Shown: piece by piece, positions 27,625 to 37,980 of the stretch
Layout: each line of letters opens with the position of its first letter
Numbering within the stretch: position 1 is the stretch's first letter
NCBI RefSeq assembly: GCF_021168475.1
Contig: NZ_JAJOZT010000002.1
Coordinates: 434,001-498,000, forward strand
Source: Pseudoclavibacter sp. 13-3
GTDB lineage: Bacteria > Actinomycetota > Actinomycetes > Actinomycetales > Microbacteriaceae
Length of the DNA stretch: 64,000 nt
Direction: 5' to 3'
Program-made: the position numbers and the translations under genes
Notes under the pieces: model-generated
The model's database searches: none
Seen by the model: the letters and a program-made list of their open reading frames with translations, nothing else
What the model was told of the DNA's origin: nothing

Positions 27625-28482
27625 ATGACCACCATCATCGTCGGCATCGACGGCACCGTGCGCGGAGAACGCGCACTCGAATGGGCGCTGGCACAGACCA
27701 GGCTCGTCGCTGACCCGCAGCTGCATCTGCTGACAGTGGTCGACCCTCATGCGCTGCGCGGCACCGGCGTCAGCGAGGTGGATGCGACGCAGGGGGCCGA
27801 GAACCTGATCGCCTCAGTGCAGCGCGCCGCTGCAGAGTCGAACCCCGGCCTCGGCATCACCACGACGGTCGCCCACGGCGGCATCGTCGATGCGCTGATC
27901 GACGCGGCCGATCAGAGCGATCTGATCGTACTGGGCTCGCACCACGGCTCCTCGTTCAGCGAAGCGGTCGGCGGCGCCAAGGGGCTGCGCGTCTCAGTGT
28001 CGACGAACGTTCCGACTGCGGTGATCCCATCAGACTGGACTGCCGCCGGGCAGCACGAACCCGGAATCGTCGTCGGCGTGGGCCCGGACGACGTCAGCGA
28101 GAGTGCGGTCGAGTTCGCCGTCACCCAGGCGCTGGCCACGGATCAGCCGCTTGAGCTGGTCTCTGTCTGGGGTCTGCCGCCGGTGATCAGCAGGCCGGCA
28201 GAGGCCATGGGCGGGGGGCTCGCTCCGGTGGGTCGCCAGTTCCAGGAACAGCTCGACGTACGCGCCCTGCAGCTGCGCACGAGGCACGAGGATCTCGACG
28301 TCACCGGTCGCTCGATCGAAGGCGCTCCGGCGTCACAGCTGACTGCGGCCGCGGCCGGCCGACGCATGCTGGTGCTGGGCACTCATTCGCGCACCGTGCT
28401 CGGACGTGCGCTGTTCGGCTCGGTGTCGCACGGCGTGCTGCTCGATCTTCGTGTTCCGACGGTGGTCGTGCCGAACGTCTGA
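27625..28482 (+). CDS. Universal stress protein with two UspA domains
   Basis: The 285-residue cytosolic protein has two UspA folds: residues 1-140 (IIVGIDGTVRGERALEWAL ... LIVLGSHHGSSFSEAVGGAKGLRVSVSTNVPTAVI) and about 150-285 (GIVVGVGPDDVSESAVEFAV ... MLVLGTHSRTVLGRALFGSVSHGVLLDLRVPTVVV). The first ATP-binding-type Gly motif is near canonical; in the second, one Gly is replaced, so nucleotide binding there may be weaker. ATG 27625 is fixed by AAGGAG 6 nt upstream; the frame open further upstream is non-coding. It may be co-expressed with the phosphate permease. Confidence 0.9.
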   Translation: MTTIIVGIDGTVRGERALEWALAQTRLVADPQLHLLTVVDPHALRGTGVSEVDATQGAENLIASVQRAAAESNPGLGITTTVAHGGIVDALIDAADQSDLIVLGSHHGSSFSEAVGGAKGLRVSVSTNVPTAVIPSDWTAAGQHEPGIVVGVGPDDVSESAVEFAVTQALATDQPLELVSVWGLPPVISRPAEAMGGGLAPVGRQFQEQLDVRALQLRTRHEDLDVTGRSIEGAPASQLTAAAAGRRMLVLGTHSRTVLGRALFGSVSHGVLLDLRVPTVVVPNV

Positions 28483-28509
28483 GCGAGACTCTTCGCGGGG
28501 CCGGCCCGC

Positions 28510-28998
28510 TCAGCGAGACTCTCGGGCCTGCCGCGCTGCTGCGACGTCGCGGGCGTTGTCGATGAGCACATTGATGCGCTGCAGCAGGCTGCGTTCGTCG
28601 ATGCCGGTCAGCAGAGCGTTCTCGAAGGTGTCGAGACCCTGCCAGGCTTCGGTCAGTCGGCGTGCACCACGTTCGGTGAGGGCGACGCGCTGCGTGCGAC
28701 GGTCGTTCGGGTCTTGGTACAACGACGCGAACCCGACCTTGACCAGTGTTCGGGTGCGTGTGGCGGCTGCCGCACGGGAGATGCCGAGCTGCTCGGCGAT
28801 CTCTCGAACGCTGAGCTTCTCTTTGCCCGCTGCCGCAAGAGCCATCAGCGCATAGAACTGAGTGGCCGGAAGCTGCCACTCAGCACGCAGGTAGTCATCG
28901 ATCAGACGGTCGAAGAGCGAGGTCGCGTAGTGCAGGCGAAAACCGGCATCGGTGATGCGGGGCAGAGGGCCCTGGGAGTCTTCGGACTGCTGCGTCAT
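28510..28998 (-). CDS. MarR-family transcriptional regulator
   Basis: The 162-residue protein contains a MarR winged helix (about 50-115): ALMALAAAGKEKLSVREIAEQLGISRAAAATRTRTLVKVGFASLYQDPNDRRTQRVALTERG with the DPNDRRTQ wing. MarR proteins bind palindromic operators and respond to small phenolics or metabolites. It lies just downstream of the mevalonate genes on the same strand but has its own -35-like TTGACT (29036-29031). ATG 28998 is preferred over an upstream in-frame start. It could control the isoprenoid operon, but only position suggests this. Confidence 0.85.
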   Translation of the reverse strand: MTQQSEDSQGPLPRITDAGFRLHYATSLFDRLIDDYLRAEWQLPATQFYALMALAAAGKEKLSVREIAEQLGISRAAAATRTRTLVKVGFASLYQDPNDRRTQRVALTERGARRLTEAWQGLDTFENALLTGIDERSLLQRINVLIDNARDVAAARQARESR

Positions 28999-29087
28999 GG
29001 TATTTGCAGTGAACCGCTTTCCCCGGCGCAAGTCAAGGACATCGTGCGGGCGTCGCGGAATGTCTGTGAAGAGTTCTCCAACACGAC

Positions 29088-29107
29088 ATATGCATTTGCA
29101 GGCATAT
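29088..29107. promoter_or_regulatory. Inverted repeat ATATGC-N8-GCATAT, candidate MarR operator
   Basis: The repeat lies between the fni stop and the MarR promoter. The spacer contains ATTTGCAG, which recurs at 29002-29009 inside the MarR start region. MarR proteins commonly bind such palindromes and autoregulate. Confidence 0.4.
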
Positions 29108-29108
29108 C

Positions 29109-30167
29109 TCAGTGGCGGTGCGCCAGTTCCGCGAGATCGATGCCTCGCAGCCGAGCGAACTCCGCCGTCGGCCCGGTGATGAGCAAGTCAGTGCGGGCAA
29201 TGGCCTCCAGGTCGGCCGCTCCGAGCAGCGTGAGCAGAGTCTGCACCTGCTCCTTCCATGACTCCAGCTCTGCAGTCAGAGCCTCGACCCCGTCAGCGAC
29301 GAGCACGTGCAGAAAGTGGCCGCTGACCCCGACGGCGCGAGCGCCCAAGGCGAGTGCGCGCACGACATCCAGCGGATTGCGCACGCCGCCGGAGGCGATC
29401 GCCTCGACCGGCAGCGCAGGCGCCGCGTGCAGGGAATCGAGCAGGCACTCGACGGCGGTCTGGCCCCAGCCAGACAGGTAGTCGTACTCGCTTCGCTGCC
29501 GCCGACGGTTCTCGATCGCGATGAAGTTCGTGCCGCCGCGTCCGCTGACGTCGACGGTGCGCACACCGCGTTCGAGCAGCTGCTCGACGCTGTGTCGGCT
29601 GAGGCCGAACCCGACCTCTTTGACCACGACCGGCACGCCGACCTCGTCCACAATCCGCTCGATCCGGTCGAGCCAGCCGCGAAAGTCGCGGTCGCCCTCG
29701 GGCATCACGAGCTCTTGGGCCGGGTTCACATGGATCTGCAGCGCGTCGGCAGAGAGAATCCCGACGGCTCGCTTCGCCTGCTCGACGGTCATCTCGGGGC
29801 TCACATTCGCGAATACGAACGCCTCAGGGGCGTTCTCTCGGATTACCCGAAACGTCGATTCAAGGCCCGGATCGCGCAGTGCAGGGCTCACCGAACCGCT
29901 GGCGATCGACACACCTGCAGCCGCAGCAGCCTGCGCGAGGTCGGCGTTGAGCGCCCCGGTCATCCTGCTGCCGCCGGTCATCGCGTTGATGTAGAACGGC
30001 ACCGGCCAACGCCGACCGGCCACGGTCGTGCTGATGTCGACCGCGTCGCGCGTCACACCGTTGAAGGTGTGATGAAGAAACCGCACGTCGTCGAAGCCCG
30101 AACCGCGTTGTTCGTCGCGAAGCTCCTCGGCGAGGCGAACGTGCTCGTCTTTGCGCTCACTGCTCAT
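29109..30167 (-). CDS. fni: Type 2 isopentenyl-diphosphate isomerase (FMN, NADPH)
   Basis: This 352-residue enzyme interconverts IPP and DMAPP using reduced FMN. It has RKDEHVRLAEE at the N-terminus, FYINAMTGGS, SGSVSPALRDP, HVNPAQELVMPEGDRDF, VVVKEVGFGLS, the DVSGRGGTNF motif and ASGGVRNPLDVVRALALGARAVGVSG. All FMN-barrel landmarks are present. ATG 30167 is chosen over 30179 because AAAGGA is properly spaced only from it. It is the last gene of the lower mevalonate cluster; 61 nt separate it from pmk. Confidence 0.95.
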   Translation of the reverse strand: MSSERKDEHVRLAEELRDEQRGSGFDDVRFLHHTFNGVTRDAVDISTTVAGRRWPVPFYINAMTGGSRMTGALNADLAQAAAAAGVSIASGSVSPALRDPGLESTFRVIRENAPEAFVFANVSPEMTVEQAKRAVGILSADALQIHVNPAQELVMPEGDRDFRGWLDRIERIVDEVGVPVVVKEVGFGLSRHSVEQLLERGVRTVDVSGRGGTNFIAIENRRRQRSEYDYLSGWGQTAVECLLDSLHAAPALPVEAIASGGVRNPLDVVRALALGARAVGVSGHFLHVLVADGVEALTAELESWKEQVQTLLTLLGAADLEAIARTDLLITGPTAEFARLRGIDLAELAHRH

Positions 30168-30228
30168 GCTGCTCTGCATCCTTTCTGTCTGCGGCCGTCC
30201 TCCGCCGCCGAACCACTCCGGTGAGGCC

Positions 30229-31347
30229 CTACTCGACCATGCCCTGTGGCTGGTGCACCCGCAGGTTGAGCGGCCTGATGTCGGCCCGCTCCCAGGCGGC
30301 GAGCATGCCGTCGATGTCGGCGTCGCGGTCGATCAGCACGATGCCGCAGTCTCCGCCGCCCGCCCCCGAGGTCTTGGCGGCACCGCCGCACACCTCGGCC
30401 GTCTCGATCAGACGCTGCAGCTTCGGAGTCTCGATGGTGATGCCCGAGTGCTCGCCCAGCTCGCGCAGCAGCTCGCGGTTGCGGCGGATGCCGGCGGCGA
30501 TGCCGACCCCGTCGTCGCGTTCCAGCGCTTCGGCGAGTTCGGTCACGCACGCGTGGCTCTCCGCCAGAAAGCGGCTGTAGTGCACACTGCGCTGACCCTT
30601 GCGAGCCTGCACCCCGCCGACCAGACGAGCGGTCGAGGCGGGCGATCCCGTCCACCCCACGACGAGGCGCAGACGATCGGGCGGCACGATCCTGCGCACC
30701 TCGAGACCCGGCCAGTCGATTGCGAGCATCTCGGTCAGCGGCCTGGCGACGCGCTCGGCGCGCGCCCACTCGCGGTCGAAGGCGCGGTAGACGATCCAGC
30801 CGCCGAACATGCTCGCGGCGACGTCGCCGCCCGAGCCGCTGCGTTGCACTTCGATGCTGGCGATGAGCGCGAGCTTCAGCTGCTCCATGCGGGTCAGATC
30901 GAGCCGATAGTGCTCGCAGAGCGCCCGCACCGTGGCCACCGTGACCGCCGCAGACGACCCGAGGCCGAACTTGCGGCCGGCGTCGTCGTCGAGCTCGCTC
31001 GTGATGTCGAGGTCGTACAGCTCAAGCGGCGTGCCGAGGCCGATGGCGGCCTCTTCGACGACTCTGATGGCCGCGAGCACGAAGTCGAACGGCGTCTGCT
31101 CGGGCTCGATCACCATGTCGTTGTCGCGCCGATGCCATTCGAGCGAGAGGCTCGCGTACTGATCCGAGGTGATGTGCCCGGTGCCGCGCGCGGGGCTCAC
31201 CCGCACCTGCACGTAGCGGTCGACGGCGATCAGCACCGCCGGGTATCCGGCTTCGACGACGGCGTACTCGCCGGCGATGTAGAGCTTGCCGGGCGCCCGC
31301 ACGACGGTGGCGCGGGACGGAACGGCGATGTCATGGACGGCGCACAT
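30229..31347 (-). CDS. Phosphomevalonate kinase (GHMP family)
   Basis: The 372-residue kinase turns mevalonate 5-phosphate into the diphosphate. It has the GHMP N-terminal motif RAPGKLYIAGEYAVVEAGYPAVL, the ATP-binding loop KFGLGSSAAVTVATV near residue 132, SGSGGDVAASMFGGWIVYR typical of PMK, and the C-terminal KTSGAGGGDCGIVLID loop. The start ATG 31347 follows an excellent AGGAGGT site at 8-nt spacing that lies inside the end of mvaD; the intergenic distance is 2 nt. The order MK-MDD-PMK-FNI is the same as in the Streptomyces mevalonate cluster. Confidence 0.93.
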   Translation of the reverse strand: MCAVHDIAVPSRATVVRAPGKLYIAGEYAVVEAGYPAVLIAVDRYVQVRVSPARGTGHITSDQYASLSLEWHRRDNDMVIEPEQTPFDFVLAAIRVVEEAAIGLGTPLELYDLDITSELDDDAGRKFGLGSSAAVTVATVRALCEHYRLDLTRMEQLKLALIASIEVQRSGSGGDVAASMFGGWIVYRAFDREWARAERVARPLTEMLAIDWPGLEVRRIVPPDRLRLVVGWTGSPASTARLVGGVQARKGQRSVHYSRFLAESHACVTELAEALERDDGVGIAAGIRRNRELLRELGEHSGITIETPKLQRLIETAEVCGGAAKTSGAGGGDCGIVLIDRDADIDGMLAAWERADIRPLNLRVHQPQGMVE

Positions 31348-31349
31348 GT

Positions 31350-32459
31350 CTAGAGACCTCCTGCATGGTTCGTCGCGTCGCTGCCGACTGCGGCGGTCTG
31401 GCTGCCGGCGGATGCGCCAGGTGCGCCGATCTCGCCCGGCCAGACGCTCAGGGCCGGGCCCGACCGGGCCACCACGGTCTGCAGACCCGGCACGGTCGGC
31501 TCCAGCCGCCGCCGCAGCCACGATCGCACCTGTTCACCGGCGGAGCCGCTGGTGAGCACCTTGACGTTCGCCCCGGCATCCATCGTCGCCCAGGCCGGCA
31601 GGCCGGCGGCGCGGGCCTCGCGCACGGCTCGCAGCGCTTCGATGCTCGAGGCGTTCAGATACTGCACCCGGGGCTCAGCGCCGAGCATCGTCGCGTGCAT
31701 GCCGAATGCGTTCGCCTCGGAGGTCTCGCCCAGCCGCGAGAGGTCTGCCTGCGCGATCGCGTCGAGCGCCTCGTCCAGATCGTCGTGGCTGCGCCGCACC
31801 CAGGGCTCGTACTCGGCAGAGGTCTCGACGGTGCGGCGCATGGCCTCACGGCTCGAGACCGCTTTGCGTCCGGAGTCGATGACCAGCACGACGATCGCCA
31901 GATCGAGGTCGCTCTGCAGCGGCTCGGCATACGACGACTCGTCGTCATGGCCGGCATGCCAGATGGCCAGCCCGCCGAAGACCGACCGCGACGCCGATCC
32001 CGACCCTCTTCGCGCGAGCCGTGACAGGTCGCGATCGTCGAGTTCGAGCCCCGCAGCGGCGGCTGCCGCGCCGGCGAGTGCGGCGAACCCGCTGGCCGAA
32101 CTGGCCAGCCCCGCGGCAGTCGGCACGGTGTTGCGCGTGACGACGTCGGCGGCAGCGGTGATGCCGGCTCGCCGGCGCACGATGTCGAGAAAGTCTGAGA
32201 TGCGCCGCAGCGGCTGGCCGTTGAGCGGCTGCCCGTCGAGCACGGCATGGTCGCCTGTGCCGGCCTCAGCGCCATCGTCGACGAAGCGCACCGTGGTGAC
32301 CGTGTGCAGATCGTCGAGTGTCAGCGAGACGCTGGAGGTTCGCGGGAGGATGAGCCGCTCGTCGGCCTTGCCCCAGTACTTGATCAGCGCGATGTTCGCA
32401 TGTGCCACAGCTGTGGCCACGCCGGGTGCAGCTGCCACCGGTGTCGGGCGAACGGTCAC
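31350..32459 (-). CDS. mvaD: Diphosphomevalonate decarboxylase
   Basis: The 369-residue GHMP enzyme decarboxylates mevalonate diphosphate to IPP. It shows the signature AHANIALIKYWGKADERLILPRTSSVSLTLDD, then PTAAGLASSASGFAALA (phosphate loop), ARRGSGSASRSVFGGLAIW, and the C-terminal AWATMDAGANVKVLT with the catalytic Asp. GTG 32459 overlaps the mevalonate kinase stop by four bases (GTGA), implying translational coupling. The family is specific to the mevalonate pathway, which makes the pathway call firm. Confidence 0.95.
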   Translation of the reverse strand: MTVRPTPVAAAPGVATAVAHANIALIKYWGKADERLILPRTSSVSLTLDDLHTVTTVRFVDDGAEAGTGDHAVLDGQPLNGQPLRRISDFLDIVRRRAGITAAADVVTRNTVPTAAGLASSASGFAALAGAAAAAAGLELDDRDLSRLARRGSGSASRSVFGGLAIWHAGHDDESSYAEPLQSDLDLAIVVLVIDSGRKAVSSREAMRRTVETSAEYEPWVRRSHDDLDEALDAIAQADLSRLGETSEANAFGMHATMLGAEPRVQYLNASSIEALRAVREARAAGLPAWATMDAGANVKVLTSGSAGEQVRSWLRRRLEPTVPGLQTVVARSGPALSVWPGEIGAPGASAGSQTAAVGSDATNHAGGL

Positions 32460-33448
32460 GCGGCGACCTCATAGGCGTGCGGCGCATAGACCCACGTGCC
32501 GGTGGCTCCGGCCATGCCGAGCGCAGCGGCCACGCGCTTCGCGTCAGCGCTGGTGCGGGCGAGGGCGATCACGCAGCCGCCGCGACCGCCGCCGGTGAGC
32601 TTCGCGCCCACGGCACCCGCGCCGCGCGCCGCGGCGGTGAGCTGGTCGAGGCGCGCGTTGCTCACGCCGAGCTCGGTCAGCAGCCGGTGGGCGTCGTTCA
32701 TCTTCTCGCCGAGCCCTCCGACGTCACCGGCCCGCACGTCGTCGACCGCCGCGGCGGTGATGCGTCCCAGCTCGGCCAGCCGCGGCCGGGTGATCTCGGG
32801 GCACCGCTCGTGCTCTTCGCGAATATGCCCGACGGTCTCGCGGGTGCTGCCGTGAATGCCGGAGTCGGCCACGACGATCCACGCGGAGAGGCTGATCTGC
32901 ACGGCTGTGGTCGCGCCGGCCTGAAAGTGGATCGGCGTCTGCGACGAGGTCGCCGTCGCGTCGAGACCGGACGGATGCCCATGCGCGATGCGCTCGGCCA
33001 CCTGCGTCAGGTCGAAGAGGTCTTCGGGCTCGGCGTCGACGTCGAAGGCGTTGAGCACGGCACGGATGACCGCACCTGCCGCTGCCGCCGACGACCCGAG
33101 CCCCCGCTCGGGCGGAAACTCGGCGTGCGTTGCGATGCGCAGACGGGCGTGCGGATGCCCCGCGAACTCGAGTGCCGCATGCACCGCACGCACGATGCTC
33201 GCGAATCGGGCCGGTGCCTCGGCGAGCGGGCCGGTCCAGCCCAGGCTCGACAGCTCTGAGGGGCCGGTGGTCGGCTCGACGCGCGCGATCATGCGCAGGT
33301 TGCGCAGCGGCATCGCGATGGCCGGGTAGCCGTAGACGACAGAGTGCTCGCCGAAGAGGATGATCTTCGCGACGGTCTGACCGACGCCTGCATGCATCGG
33401 AGTGTCGACCGACGAGCGGTCTGAGGGGGAGGGGTCGCCGACCTGCAC
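32456..33448 (-). CDS. mvk: Mevalonate kinase
   Basis: The 330-residue GHMP kinase phosphorylates mevalonate at C5, the entry step of the lower pathway. Signatures are AKIILFGEHSVVYGYPAIAMPL, the ATP loop PPERGLGSSAAAAGAVIRAVL, and the C-terminal GAKLTGGGRGGCVIAL. GTG 33448 is chosen because GGGAAAGG lies about 10 nt upstream; an ATG at 33397 is possible. The frame opens further upstream into the gap after the TctA-like gene, but without family similarity. The 50-nt gap to that gene shows no promoter or terminator, so co-transcription is likely. Confidence 0.93.
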   Translation of the reverse strand: MQVGDPSPSDRSSVDTPMHAGVGQTVAKIILFGEHSVVYGYPAIAMPLRNLRMIARVEPTTGPSELSSLGWTGPLAEAPARFASIVRAVHAALEFAGHPHARLRIATHAEFPPERGLGSSAAAAGAVIRAVLNAFDVDAEPEDLFDLTQVAERIAHGHPSGLDATATSSQTPIHFQAGATTAVQISLSAWIVVADSGIHGSTRETVGHIREEHERCPEITRPRLAELGRITAAAVDDVRAGDVGGLGEKMNDAHRLLTELGVSNARLDQLTAAARGAGAVGAKLTGGGRGGCVIALARTSADAKRVAAALGMAGATGTWVYAPHAYEVAA

Positions 33449-33498
33449 AGTGAAGAAGCCTTTCCCGGTGCATGCGCACCGACGCACAACGCTGCTGC

Positions 33499-34851
33499 TC
33501 AGAGCAGGTTCTGCACGATCCATGGTGCGGCGTACAGCGTCATGAACTGCACGCCGTAGCTGACGCCAAGCTTATTCAGGGTACCGCAGGCGACGCCGAC
33601 GAGCAGCACGCCGAAGATGTTGGCCACGCCGGCGTCGAGATAGGCGAGCAGCAGAATGAACCCGATGAAGAGCCCGAGCACGGCCTCGTGCGGGATGTAG
33701 CGCATCACGAAGTAGGTGATCTGGTACGAGTAGCGCACAGCGATCACATAGGTCAGCACCAGGGCGAGCAGGGCGCCGACGATCACTGCCGTGACGAACT
33801 GGCCGGTGCTCAGCAGCTGGTGCAGGTTGTGATCGAGCGAGAAGGCCGGCGGCGCATTGAACAGCGCCTGCGCCGGGCCGATCGCGACCGGCGAGAGCGG
33901 GATGCCCACGGCCAGCAGCGGGATGATCACGCCTGACAGGTAGGCGGCGTGTGCGACGCCGTTCATGCTCGACACCGCACGGTTCGCGTGTTTGAGCCTG
34001 TCGGTGCTGCGGCCTGCCGACGCCTCGCCGACCAGGAAGGTCAGACCGACCGGGCTGAGAAAGAACAGCGGGGTGGTGATCAGCGACGCGAGGCCGGTTC
34101 GCCCCATCTCGTCACGAGTGAGAATGCGGTTGGGAGCGAGCGACTGGCCGCCCAGATCCTTGAGCGAGATCTCGACCTCAGTCGGTGCGTACCGGGGCAG
34201 GCGGTCGCGACTGCGCTTGTTGAGCAGGCCGAGAATCGAGACCAGCAGCGGGCCGATGGTGATGCCCAAGAAGAACGAGACCGAGATGTTGCCGTCTTTG
34301 GGAATCACCTCTTGGGTGCGATAGAGCGAGAGCAGCCCCTGAAAGAGCAGCGCCATCGGGATGATCGAGATGAGCGAGAGCAGTCGGTTGCCGCCGAGCA
34401 GCGCGAGCAGCACCGCGCCGAACACGAACAGCAGCGAGCCGTACTGGCGCAGCGTCTCGGCATACGGCGTGATCGCCGTGGCGATGGCGAGGCTCACCGG
34501 AATCGCGATGATCGTGCCGACTGCGCTGCCGGCGGCCATCTTCTTGATCGTCTCGGCCGCGCGCCCTTTGCTCTTCAGATAGAGCGAGTGCTCCATCATG
34601 GGCGTCGACATCACGCCGCCGGGCAGGCCGACCAGCGCTGTGGGAATCGCGTTGGTGAGGTTGAGCGTCACGATCGCGGCGATGAAGAAGGTCAGCACCA
34701 CGATCGGTGCCGTGCCGGCGAGCACCAGTGCGAGGGTGACGGGCACCAGCACGCTGGTCTCATCGGTGCCGGGGATGAACCCGATGAACGAATAGAGCAG
34801 GATCGCGCCGATCGCGGCGATGAGCATCTGCAGGATGATCGAGGCGTCCAT
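33499..34851 (-). CDS. TctA-like (tripartite tricarboxylate transporter) large membrane permease
   Basis: The 450-residue protein has about 10-12 membrane spans. TctA-type landmarks are SFIGFIPGTDETSVLVPVTLAL near the N-terminus, VGLPGGVMSTPMMEHSLYLKSKGRA (a substrate-site-like Gly-Pro loop), and a second, related half with FLSPVGLTFL and GVIIPLLAVGIPLSPVAIGPA. It is shorter than typical TctA (about 500). The normal partners, a four-span TctB and a periplasmic TctC, are missing; instead a two-span protein gene overlaps its start by one base. Mevalonate kinase follows after 50 nt. TctA-family systems move carboxylates such as citrate, so mevalonate (a hydroxy-acid) is a possible substrate; this is inference. 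Confidence 0.72.
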   Translation of the reverse strand: MDASIILQMLIAAIGAILLYSFIGFIPGTDETSVLVPVTLALVLAGTAPIVVLTFFIAAIVTLNLTNAIPTALVGLPGGVMSTPMMEHSLYLKSKGRAAETIKKMAAGSAVGTIIAIPVSLAIATAITPYAETLRQYGSLLFVFGAVLLALLGGNRLLSLISIIPMALLFQGLLSLYRTQEVIPKDGNISVSFFLGITIGPLLVSILGLLNKRSRDRLPRYAPTEVEISLKDLGGQSLAPNRILTRDEMGRTGLASLITTPLFFLSPVGLTFLVGEASAGRSTDRLKHANRAVSSMNGVAHAAYLSGVIIPLLAVGIPLSPVAIGPAQALFNAPPAFSLDHNLHQLLSTGQFVTAVIVGALLALVLTYVIAVRYSYQITYFVMRYIPHEAVLGLFIGFILLLAYLDAGVANIFGVLLVGVACGTLNKLGVSYGVQFMTLYAAPWIVQNLL

Positions 34852-35204
34852 CAGCGGTCACCGCCGTCGCCGGGCCCGGTGCCCGAATCGGGTCGCGCGT
34901 CGACGTCTGCGGTGACGTCGTCGGCGACGATGTGGATGCTGTGCTCGTGCCCGTCGTCTGTGCTCACGATGCGCACGTCTCGCTTCGGCGTGAACGCGAA
35001 GGCGCTGATGACGAAGCCGACGACCGAGCCGCCGAGGCCCCAGAAGAAGACGTTGAACGAGAGCAGCGTTGCGATCAGCAGTGCGGCTGCGGTGGTGCCA
35101 CCGCAGATCAGAAGTGCCCACGTGAGGTCTCGCGGAGAGACCAGGTCGTTCCACACTTCGATGTACCGCGCCTGATCGTCCGATTGACGGTCAGTGGAAG
35201 TCAT
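34851..35204 (-). CDS. Two-span membrane protein, likely partner of the TctA-like permease
   Basis: The 117-residue protein has a polar N-terminus, two hydrophobic segments (about 27-48 and 50-70, ALLICGGTTAAALLIATLL and VFFWGLGGSVVGFVISAFAF) and an acidic, His- and Asp-rich C-terminal tail of about 45 residues. The stop codon shares a base with the permease start (TGATG), indicating coupled synthesis. TctB proteins are larger with four spans, so this is at best a reduced analogue. TAGCAT (35218-35213) lies 8 nt before the ATG, which would give an almost leaderless transcript for the whole mevalonate block. I recognise no family. Confidence 0.6.
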   Translation of the reverse strand: MTSTDRQSDDQARYIEVWNDLVSPRDLTWALLICGGTTAAALLIATLLSFNVFFWGLGGSVVGFVISAFAFTPKRDVRIVSTDDGHEHSIHIVADDVTADVDARPDSGTGPGDGGDR

Positions 35205-35294
35205 GCTTCCTGATGCTAGACGCTCGGCTGGCGCAACGGAAGATCTGCGGCGCTGCGCAGCCCGCGCGGCGAAGCCTCCGCGTCGCGGCAGCGA

Positions 35295-35756
35295 TCAGTT
35301 GATGCCGCGGATGACGATCGTCTCAGTGCCGGGGGCGTGCGCCGCCTCGTCGGCCAGGATGGCGTCGATGACTGACGGGTCGCTGTCGGTGAGGAAGGTG
35401 TGCACGCGCTCGACCTCGTCGTTCTCGCCGATCAGCTCGGCGGCCTTGCCCAGCTCGAAGAGTGAGAGCAGGAAGCCGCGGTTCGGCTCGTGCGACCATG
35501 GAATCGGCCCCTGGCCCTTCCAGCCGTGCTTGCGCAGAGCGTCGAGGCCGCGGTGGTAGCCGGTGCGTGCGTAGGCGTAGGCGTTCACATAGTTGCCGTG
35601 CGTGCGGGCCTGCTGCGCCAGCAGCGCCCACGGCAGCGACGCAGCGGGGAACGAGGCCGCCACACGATTGAGCGGCTCGTCGGCGAGAGCGTCGGCGAGG
35701 CCCGGCACCTCATCGAGGAGGGTCGGTGGAATCGAAAGCAGGTTGTTGTCGCCCAT
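35295..35756 (-). CDS. DUF3151 family protein
   Basis: The 153-residue soluble protein matches the actinobacterial DUF3151 family: LSIPPTLLDEVPGLADAL, SLPWALLAQQA, AYAYARTGYHRGLDALRKHGWKGQGPIPW, EPNRGFLLSLFELGKAAELIGE. No function is established. An in-frame ATG at 35807 exists, but ATG 35756 fits the family start and has CATACT (35769-35764) ending 7 nt upstream, a leaderless pattern. Confidence 0.85.
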   Translation of the reverse strand: MGDNNLLSIPPTLLDEVPGLADALADEPLNRVAASFPAASLPWALLAQQARTHGNYVNAYAYARTGYHRGLDALRKHGWKGQGPIPWSHEPNRGFLLSLFELGKAAELIGENDEVERVHTFLTDSDPSVIDAILADEAAHAPGTETIVIRGIN

Positions 35757-35868
35757 GCCATCCAGTATGCCTGCTCGTGCCAGCAGTGTCGATGAGAACC
35801 CAGACACCTGTCGGAGGGGAGTCGGCCGCGTCGTGCGAGACGAATCTCGACGACCTGCGCGGAGCCGT

Positions 35869-37980
<2,112 letters not shown>

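Follow-up and report, generated by a model that had tools for sequence, protein, structure and literature searches.

Six genes of Pseudoclavibacter probably form an operon for import and salvage of mevalonate, with a divergent TctA-type permease and a new small partner

Why does a bacterial genome in which no HMG-CoA reductase (HMGR) is found keep a set of genes for turning mevalonate into IPP and DMAPP, and why do these genes adjoin a permease? The question is raised by a 64,000-nt stretch of the genome of Pseudoclavibacter sp. 13-3 (the window, to which all coordinates of the operon refer), which carries the following six genes, listed from the first in the direction of reading.

34851..35204, minus strand: 2-TM protein of 117 aa, which would be the small subunit of the permease; motif E-[IV]-W-[NG]-D ... 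GLGG..xGF ... PKR
33499..34851, minus strand: divergent permease of TctA type, 450 aa, candidate mevalonate importer; PF01970, 88.3 bits
32456..33448, minus strand: mevalonate kinase (MK); TIGR00549, 233 bits, cut-off 163
31350..32459, minus strand: diphosphomevalonate decarboxylase (MVD); TIGR01240, 304.7 bits, cut-off 171
30229..31347, minus strand: phosphomevalonate kinase (PMK); TIGR01220, 413.9 bits, cut-off 166
29109..30167, minus strand: type-2 isopentenyl-diphosphate Delta-isomerase (IDI2); TIGR02151, 363.5 bits, cut-off 281

An earlier note on this DNA had described six nearly contiguous minus-strand genes at 29109-35204, and our coordinates and identities agree with it. In a profile search, MK, MVD, PMK and IDI2 each exceeded the curated cut-off of their NCBIfam model, which bears out the claim that the lower pathway, including an IPP isomerase, is complete. 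The 2-TM protein had no match in Pfam or NCBIfam. The 2-TM and TctA genes overlap by 1 nt and MK and MVD by 4 nt, and the other junctions are gaps of 50 nt (TctA to MK, given the MK start GTG 33448), 2 nt (MVD to PMK) and 61 nt (PMK to IDI2). The MK start is either GTG 33448 or ATG 33397, while the mechanical open reading frame begins at 33523. The absence of an internal terminator was borne out as well, as no terminator-like site was found in 28400-36700 of the window. The pathway and the permease had been called fused; this holds for their adjacency in one operon, but not in the sense of a protein fusion.

To describe selection on these genes we compared the window with Pseudoclavibacter sp. 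CFCC 11306, its closest relative, and computed dN/dS (NG86). The permease (0.086), MK (0.075), PMK (0.083) and MVD (0.144) are intact and under purifying selection. The values are less informative for the 2-TM gene (0.39), which is short, and for IDI2 (0.28), which is very similar in the two genomes, with a dS of only 0.04.

Just downstream of IDI2 lies a gene for a MarR-family regulator (window 28510-29110, minus strand), and two further Pseudoclavibacter genomes (L013 and L014) have a homologue at the corresponding position. The gap between the regulator gene and IDI2 holds an inverted repeat, ATATGC-8 nt-GCATAT, at 29088-29107. It contains TGCAAATGCA and is a possible operator.

We searched the complete gene content of the host (2.35 Mb in 9 contigs, 100% complete) for the remaining isoprenoid genes. 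HMGR was not found genome-wide (PF00368), and there was no genome-wide match for HMG-CoA synthase (HMGS) to TIGR01833, an eukaryotic-type model and the sole model used; both results agree with the reported absence of HMGS and HMGR from the window, and they favour the reading of the earlier note, which had set a search for these genes elsewhere in the genome as a check. The degradative HMGR of mevalonate degradation operons was not found in this genome either. Because dxr and ispG are both present, the genome very probably encodes the MEP pathway, and salvage would therefore operate beside it and not replace it. Of the earlier suggestion that salvage runs alongside or instead of the MEP pathway, only the first half stands. 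Among TctA-family proteins, the search of this genome turned up only the permease of the operon, and a search for the TctC binding protein (PF03401) found none.

From comparative sequence evidence we propose, with strong confidence, that the six genes are a mevalonate import and salvage operon whose products supplement the MEP pathway. The divergent TctA-type permease and its 2-TM small subunit, working without TctC, would bring mevalonate across the membrane, and MK would phosphorylate and so trap it. PMK and MVD would then convert phosphorylated mevalonate to IPP, and the type-2 isomerase would yield DMAPP, so that the products join an IPP/DMAPP pool also fed by the cell's own MEP pathway, to the presumed benefit of the cell. 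The reading of the permease as a mevalonate importer with MK as the trap had already been put forward in the earlier note, and the comparisons described below support it.

The permease is rare in Microbacteriaceae, being present in 4 of 150 genomes, from two genera. Scanning 84,980 species genomes with an alignment of the permease retrieved 450 relatives, of which the best 80, with 50-96% identity, were examined. Co-occurrence of permease and mevalonate genes in relatives was a check set in advance, and lower mevalonate genes adjoin the permease in all of these best 80 loci. For 68 of them MK, MVD, PMK and IDI2 were all detected; for the remaining 12, either a contig end cuts the locus or IDI2 was not detected. 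The best 80 come from Actinomycetota (Pseudoclavibacter, Tessaracoccus, Corynebacterium, Ancrocorticia, Cellulomonas, Actinomyces, Propionibacterium), Bacillota and Mollicutes/Izimaplasma, the taxa other than Actinomycetota including Enterococcus, Carnobacteriaceae, Tissierellia, Erysipelotrichia and Izimaplasma/Mollicutes. The 2-TM gene is present in 77 of the 80 loci (tblastn). The permease pair lies upstream of the enzyme genes and in the same direction in 64 loci, and is convergent with them in 16 (Actinomyces, Schaalia, Propionibacterium and similar), where it can therefore have no transcript in common with the enzyme genes.

To assess whether mevalonate could be made in these hosts, HMGR, dxr and ispG were scored in 51 of the best-80 permease genomes, including that of the window. 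HMGR is missing in 35 of the 51, which thus show the predicted combination of permease and lower-pathway genes without HMGR. Among these 35, dxr and ispG are both present in 27 genomes, only ispG in four, only dxr in two, and neither in two. The other 16 genomes have HMGR, eight of them with both dxr and ispG and eight with neither. These 16 count against salvage, as they could make their own mevalonate. Genomes with only the lower pathway need a mevalonate input from outside, as do genomes with a degradative HMGR and no kinases.

The two genomes in which HMGR, dxr and ispG all went undetected, Schaalia vaccimaxillae DSM 15804 (L131) and Helcococcus sueciensis DSM 17243 (L154), possess the permease together with MK, MVD, PMK and IDI2. 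Because neither a mevalonate source nor either of the tested MEP markers (dxr and ispG) was detected in them, we predict that they are natural mevalonate auxotrophs, candidates subject to the completeness of their assemblies. Six genomes without HMGR and dxr were initially considered as auxotrophs, and four of them (Tissierellia-type) were dropped because ispG is present.

Is the transporter a member of a known system? The permease matches PF01970 over its whole length (residues 10-431; 88.3 bits against a cut-off of 28.9) and, as in TctABC, two membrane proteins are encoded side by side. However, operon-type permeases score only 66-88 bits with this profile, whereas canonical actinobacterial TctAs score 380-540 bits. 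A maximum-likelihood tree was built from 72 TctAs (41 salvage-linked, 8 degradation-linked and 23 canonical; quick search, midpoint rooting). In it the 41 salvage-linked and 8 degradation-linked permeases fall on one side of a branch with an SH-aLRT of 100, far from the canonical TctAs, and the degradation-linked permeases form one subgroup inside this clade. The small proteins of salvage and degradative loci belong to one family (hhalign 98.8%; common W-[GN]-D and PKR motifs). TctB has about four TM segments, whereas the operon partner has two, and no similarity was detected between the 2-TM family and 13 proteins in the TctB position (hhalign probability 3.6%). PF03401 is missing from 45 of the 51 permease genomes searched, and TctABC further differs from the operon in its TctC, for which the Pseudoclavibacter genome has no counterpart. 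Because the small partner is unlike TctB and the binding protein is missing from 45 of 51 genomes, the sequences describe a permease of TctA type that has a new small partner and lacks a binding protein; strictly speaking, this is no TTT system.

Structure comparisons added little to this assignment. No relative of the permease with a solved structure was found in the PDB by sequence, and a predicted model (pLDDT 83.7) gave no Foldseek match at E <= 0.001. A second fold comparison gave Z scores of up to 9.8 for barley Yellow stripe 1 and of about 6-7.5 for INDY/DASS-type and TRAP proteins, values that helical proteins can reach by common arrangement, and a fold assignment based on them was dropped for this reason.

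Unforeseen support for mevalonate import came from lineages in which the permease and small protein adjoin a degradative HMGR. At E <= 1e-10, a survey of 395 genomes of the class found the permease in nine, namely that of the window and eight others at 33-38% identity. The window genome has PMK and no HMGR, seven have HMGR and no PMK, and one has neither, so that PMK is missing from all eight distant genomes. PMK and HMGR occur together in six genomes of the class, and none of these has the permease. HMGR or PMK occurs in 8 of 9 permease genomes against 33 of 395 overall (hypergeometric P = 9e-9, with genome relatedness not removed). In the distant loci HMGR lies within ~2 kb of the permease, the small protein is present, and a PucR-type GAF/HTH_30 regulator (often) or HMG-CoA lyase (sometimes) is near the permease. 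Among 72,556 plasmids only six permease relatives were found, all of them on proteobacterial plasmids, in Roseomonas (two), Lichenicola, Rhizobium etli, Burkholderia cenocepacia and B. arboris. All six adjoin HMGR and the small protein, and on four of the six plasmids HMG-CoA lyase adjoins the locus.

All permease-linked HMGRs that were tested score above the threshold of TIGR00532 ('degradative'). In contrast, the HMGR inside one Streptomyces-type cluster matches TIGR00533 best, with a score below the cut-off of that model. The name of TIGR00532 alone is no proof of catabolism, because an Enterococcus HMGR also matches this model. A B. cenocepacia HMGR is termed oxidative in the title of Schwarz et al. 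2014, as cited in PMC13370337. In Pseudomonas mevalonii-type degradation loci (degradative HMGR and HMG-CoA lyase), several lineages carry the operon-type permease and small protein, probably as a mevalonate importer. The difference is that HMGR is not in the Pseudoclavibacter genome, where mevalonate would go to IPP, whereas degradation leads to acetyl-CoA and acetoacetate.

One permease locus has a different composition. In genome G527 (L022, 7766-14459), the one among the eight distant class genomes that has no HMGR, the permease lies beside HMG-CoA lyase, CoA-transferase III, aldehyde dehydrogenase and alcohol dehydrogenase genes. These may mark a route by which mevalonate reaches HMG-CoA through mevaldate and HMG without HMGR.

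Degradative HMGR loci without the operon-type permease have a TRAP, MHS or ABC transporter instead. If this slot is there to take up the pathway substrate, one would expect unrelated transporters to fill it. For instance, TRAP DctPQM genes lie beside the degradative HMGR of Ruegeria pomeroyi, Tistrella, Nitratireductor and Sulfitobacter, dipeptide-type ABC components occur in L066 and L068, and an MHS-type metabolite:H+ symporter is encoded in L067 (4156-5520) and, by sequence resemblance, in L078 (9152-10621). The Rhodococcus locus has no obvious transporter in a gene table that is incomplete. The TRAP binding proteins of Ruegeria and Nitratireductor have the lactate-binding TTHA0766 as their nearest solved structure, a resemblance that is only suggestive as to mevalonate uptake. 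No solved mevalonate-bound TRAP binding protein from degradative HMGR loci was found, the nearest being TTHA0766 and other TRAP binding proteins.

Mevalonate is common to salvage and degradation, and the same permease pair is found in both. Import with trapping by MK is for this reason the best reading. The permease could instead carry another isoprenoid-linked solute (HMG, prenol, a phosphorylated intermediate or an isoprenoid lipid), with mevalonate arising otherwise. The substrate of a TctA-family protein cannot be read from its sequence, this subfamily is very far from canonical TctAs, and HMG as the substrate would fit the gene content of the G527 locus. We nevertheless consider this unlikely, since salvage needs the substrate of MK and degradation needs that of a reverse HMGR; mevalonate is common to the two, but HMG, prenol and lipids are not. 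Less likely again is a relic, in which a once full mevalonate pathway lost its upper half, the remaining operon is decaying and the permease is incidental. Such a loss is easily pictured, given that Streptomyces-like clusters hold HMGR with the same lower genes, but the genes are intact, with dN/dS of 0.07-0.14 for the permease, MK, PMK and MVD, and the permease is linked to them in 80 of 80 loci across phyla (the best 80 of 450 relatives). Least probable, at a very slight chance, is that the pair exports or balances surplus mevalonate, which is conceivable in the 16 of 51 genomes with HMGR, but 35 of 51, including that of the window, have no HMGR to make mevalonate and thus nothing to export, and linkage to degradative HMGR and HMG-CoA lyase favours import.

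Although uptake by this pair is the reading we prefer, mevalonate import need not require an operon-type permease, since Staphylococcus aureus without mvaS grows on added mevalonate (PMC6052127). The mevalonate clusters of Streptomyces and other actinomycetes resemble the operon in having MK, MVD, PMK and IDI2 in the same order, but they include HMGR and no permease, whereas the operon has the permease and its genome no HMGR. The known mevalonate importers, mutant MCT1 F360C and evolved yeast JEN1, have the transport activity that we propose for the operon pair, but are mutant or evolved monocarboxylate transporters. One paper (PMC12405511) mentions bacterial mevalonate import systems, yet names MCT1 F360C as the sole importer known before. 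In the open literature we found no paper that names a native bacterial mevalonate importer, and open papers on TctA/TTT and mevalonate, mevalonate transporters and mevalonate degradation, a body that leaves most of the subscription literature outside, do not describe an operon-type system. The gene set is widespread and, it seems, unreported.

Bacteria use added mevalonate in feeding experiments, and E. coli K-12 strains with a blocked MEP pathway and the lower mevalonate pathway grow unaided when it is supplied at millimolar concentration. The operon offers a candidate gene pair for a native importer, one conserved across phyla and reused in salvage and degradation. We lean, with some reserve, towards a broader proposal, in which an unnamed two-subunit family (2-TM protein and divergent TctA, no binding protein) would be the mevalonate importer of many Actinomycetota, Bacillota and Mollicutes and some Pseudomonadota. 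It would serve two opposite fates, isoprenoid salvage and degradation to acetyl-CoA; S. vaccimaxillae and H. sueciensis would be natural auxotrophs relying on it, and mevalonate would be traded in microbial communities. If import is confirmed, it would give a reason for the retention of half a mevalonate pathway in many bacteria whose MEP pathway is complete, and would suggest that mevalonate is a shared nutrient. It also predicts that mevalonate can rescue cells from fosmidomycin and other MEP inhibitors, and would provide a natural transporter for isoprenoid engineering.

Three minor observations came from the surveyed loci. In L067 and L078 the MHS-type MFS symporter genes lie next to the regulator of actinomycete degradative HMGR loci, and their products are candidates for further mevalonate importers. 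In L214, L216, L218 and L219, TRAP DctPQM genes lie next to a degradative HMGR and a divergent MocR-type regulator, and are candidate mevalonate TRAP systems. In Enterococcus plantarum (G551), which has dxr and HMGR, ispG is split into two overlapping pieces (contig C7, 46927-47869), which suggests either that the MEP pathway is decaying or that the sequence contains an error.
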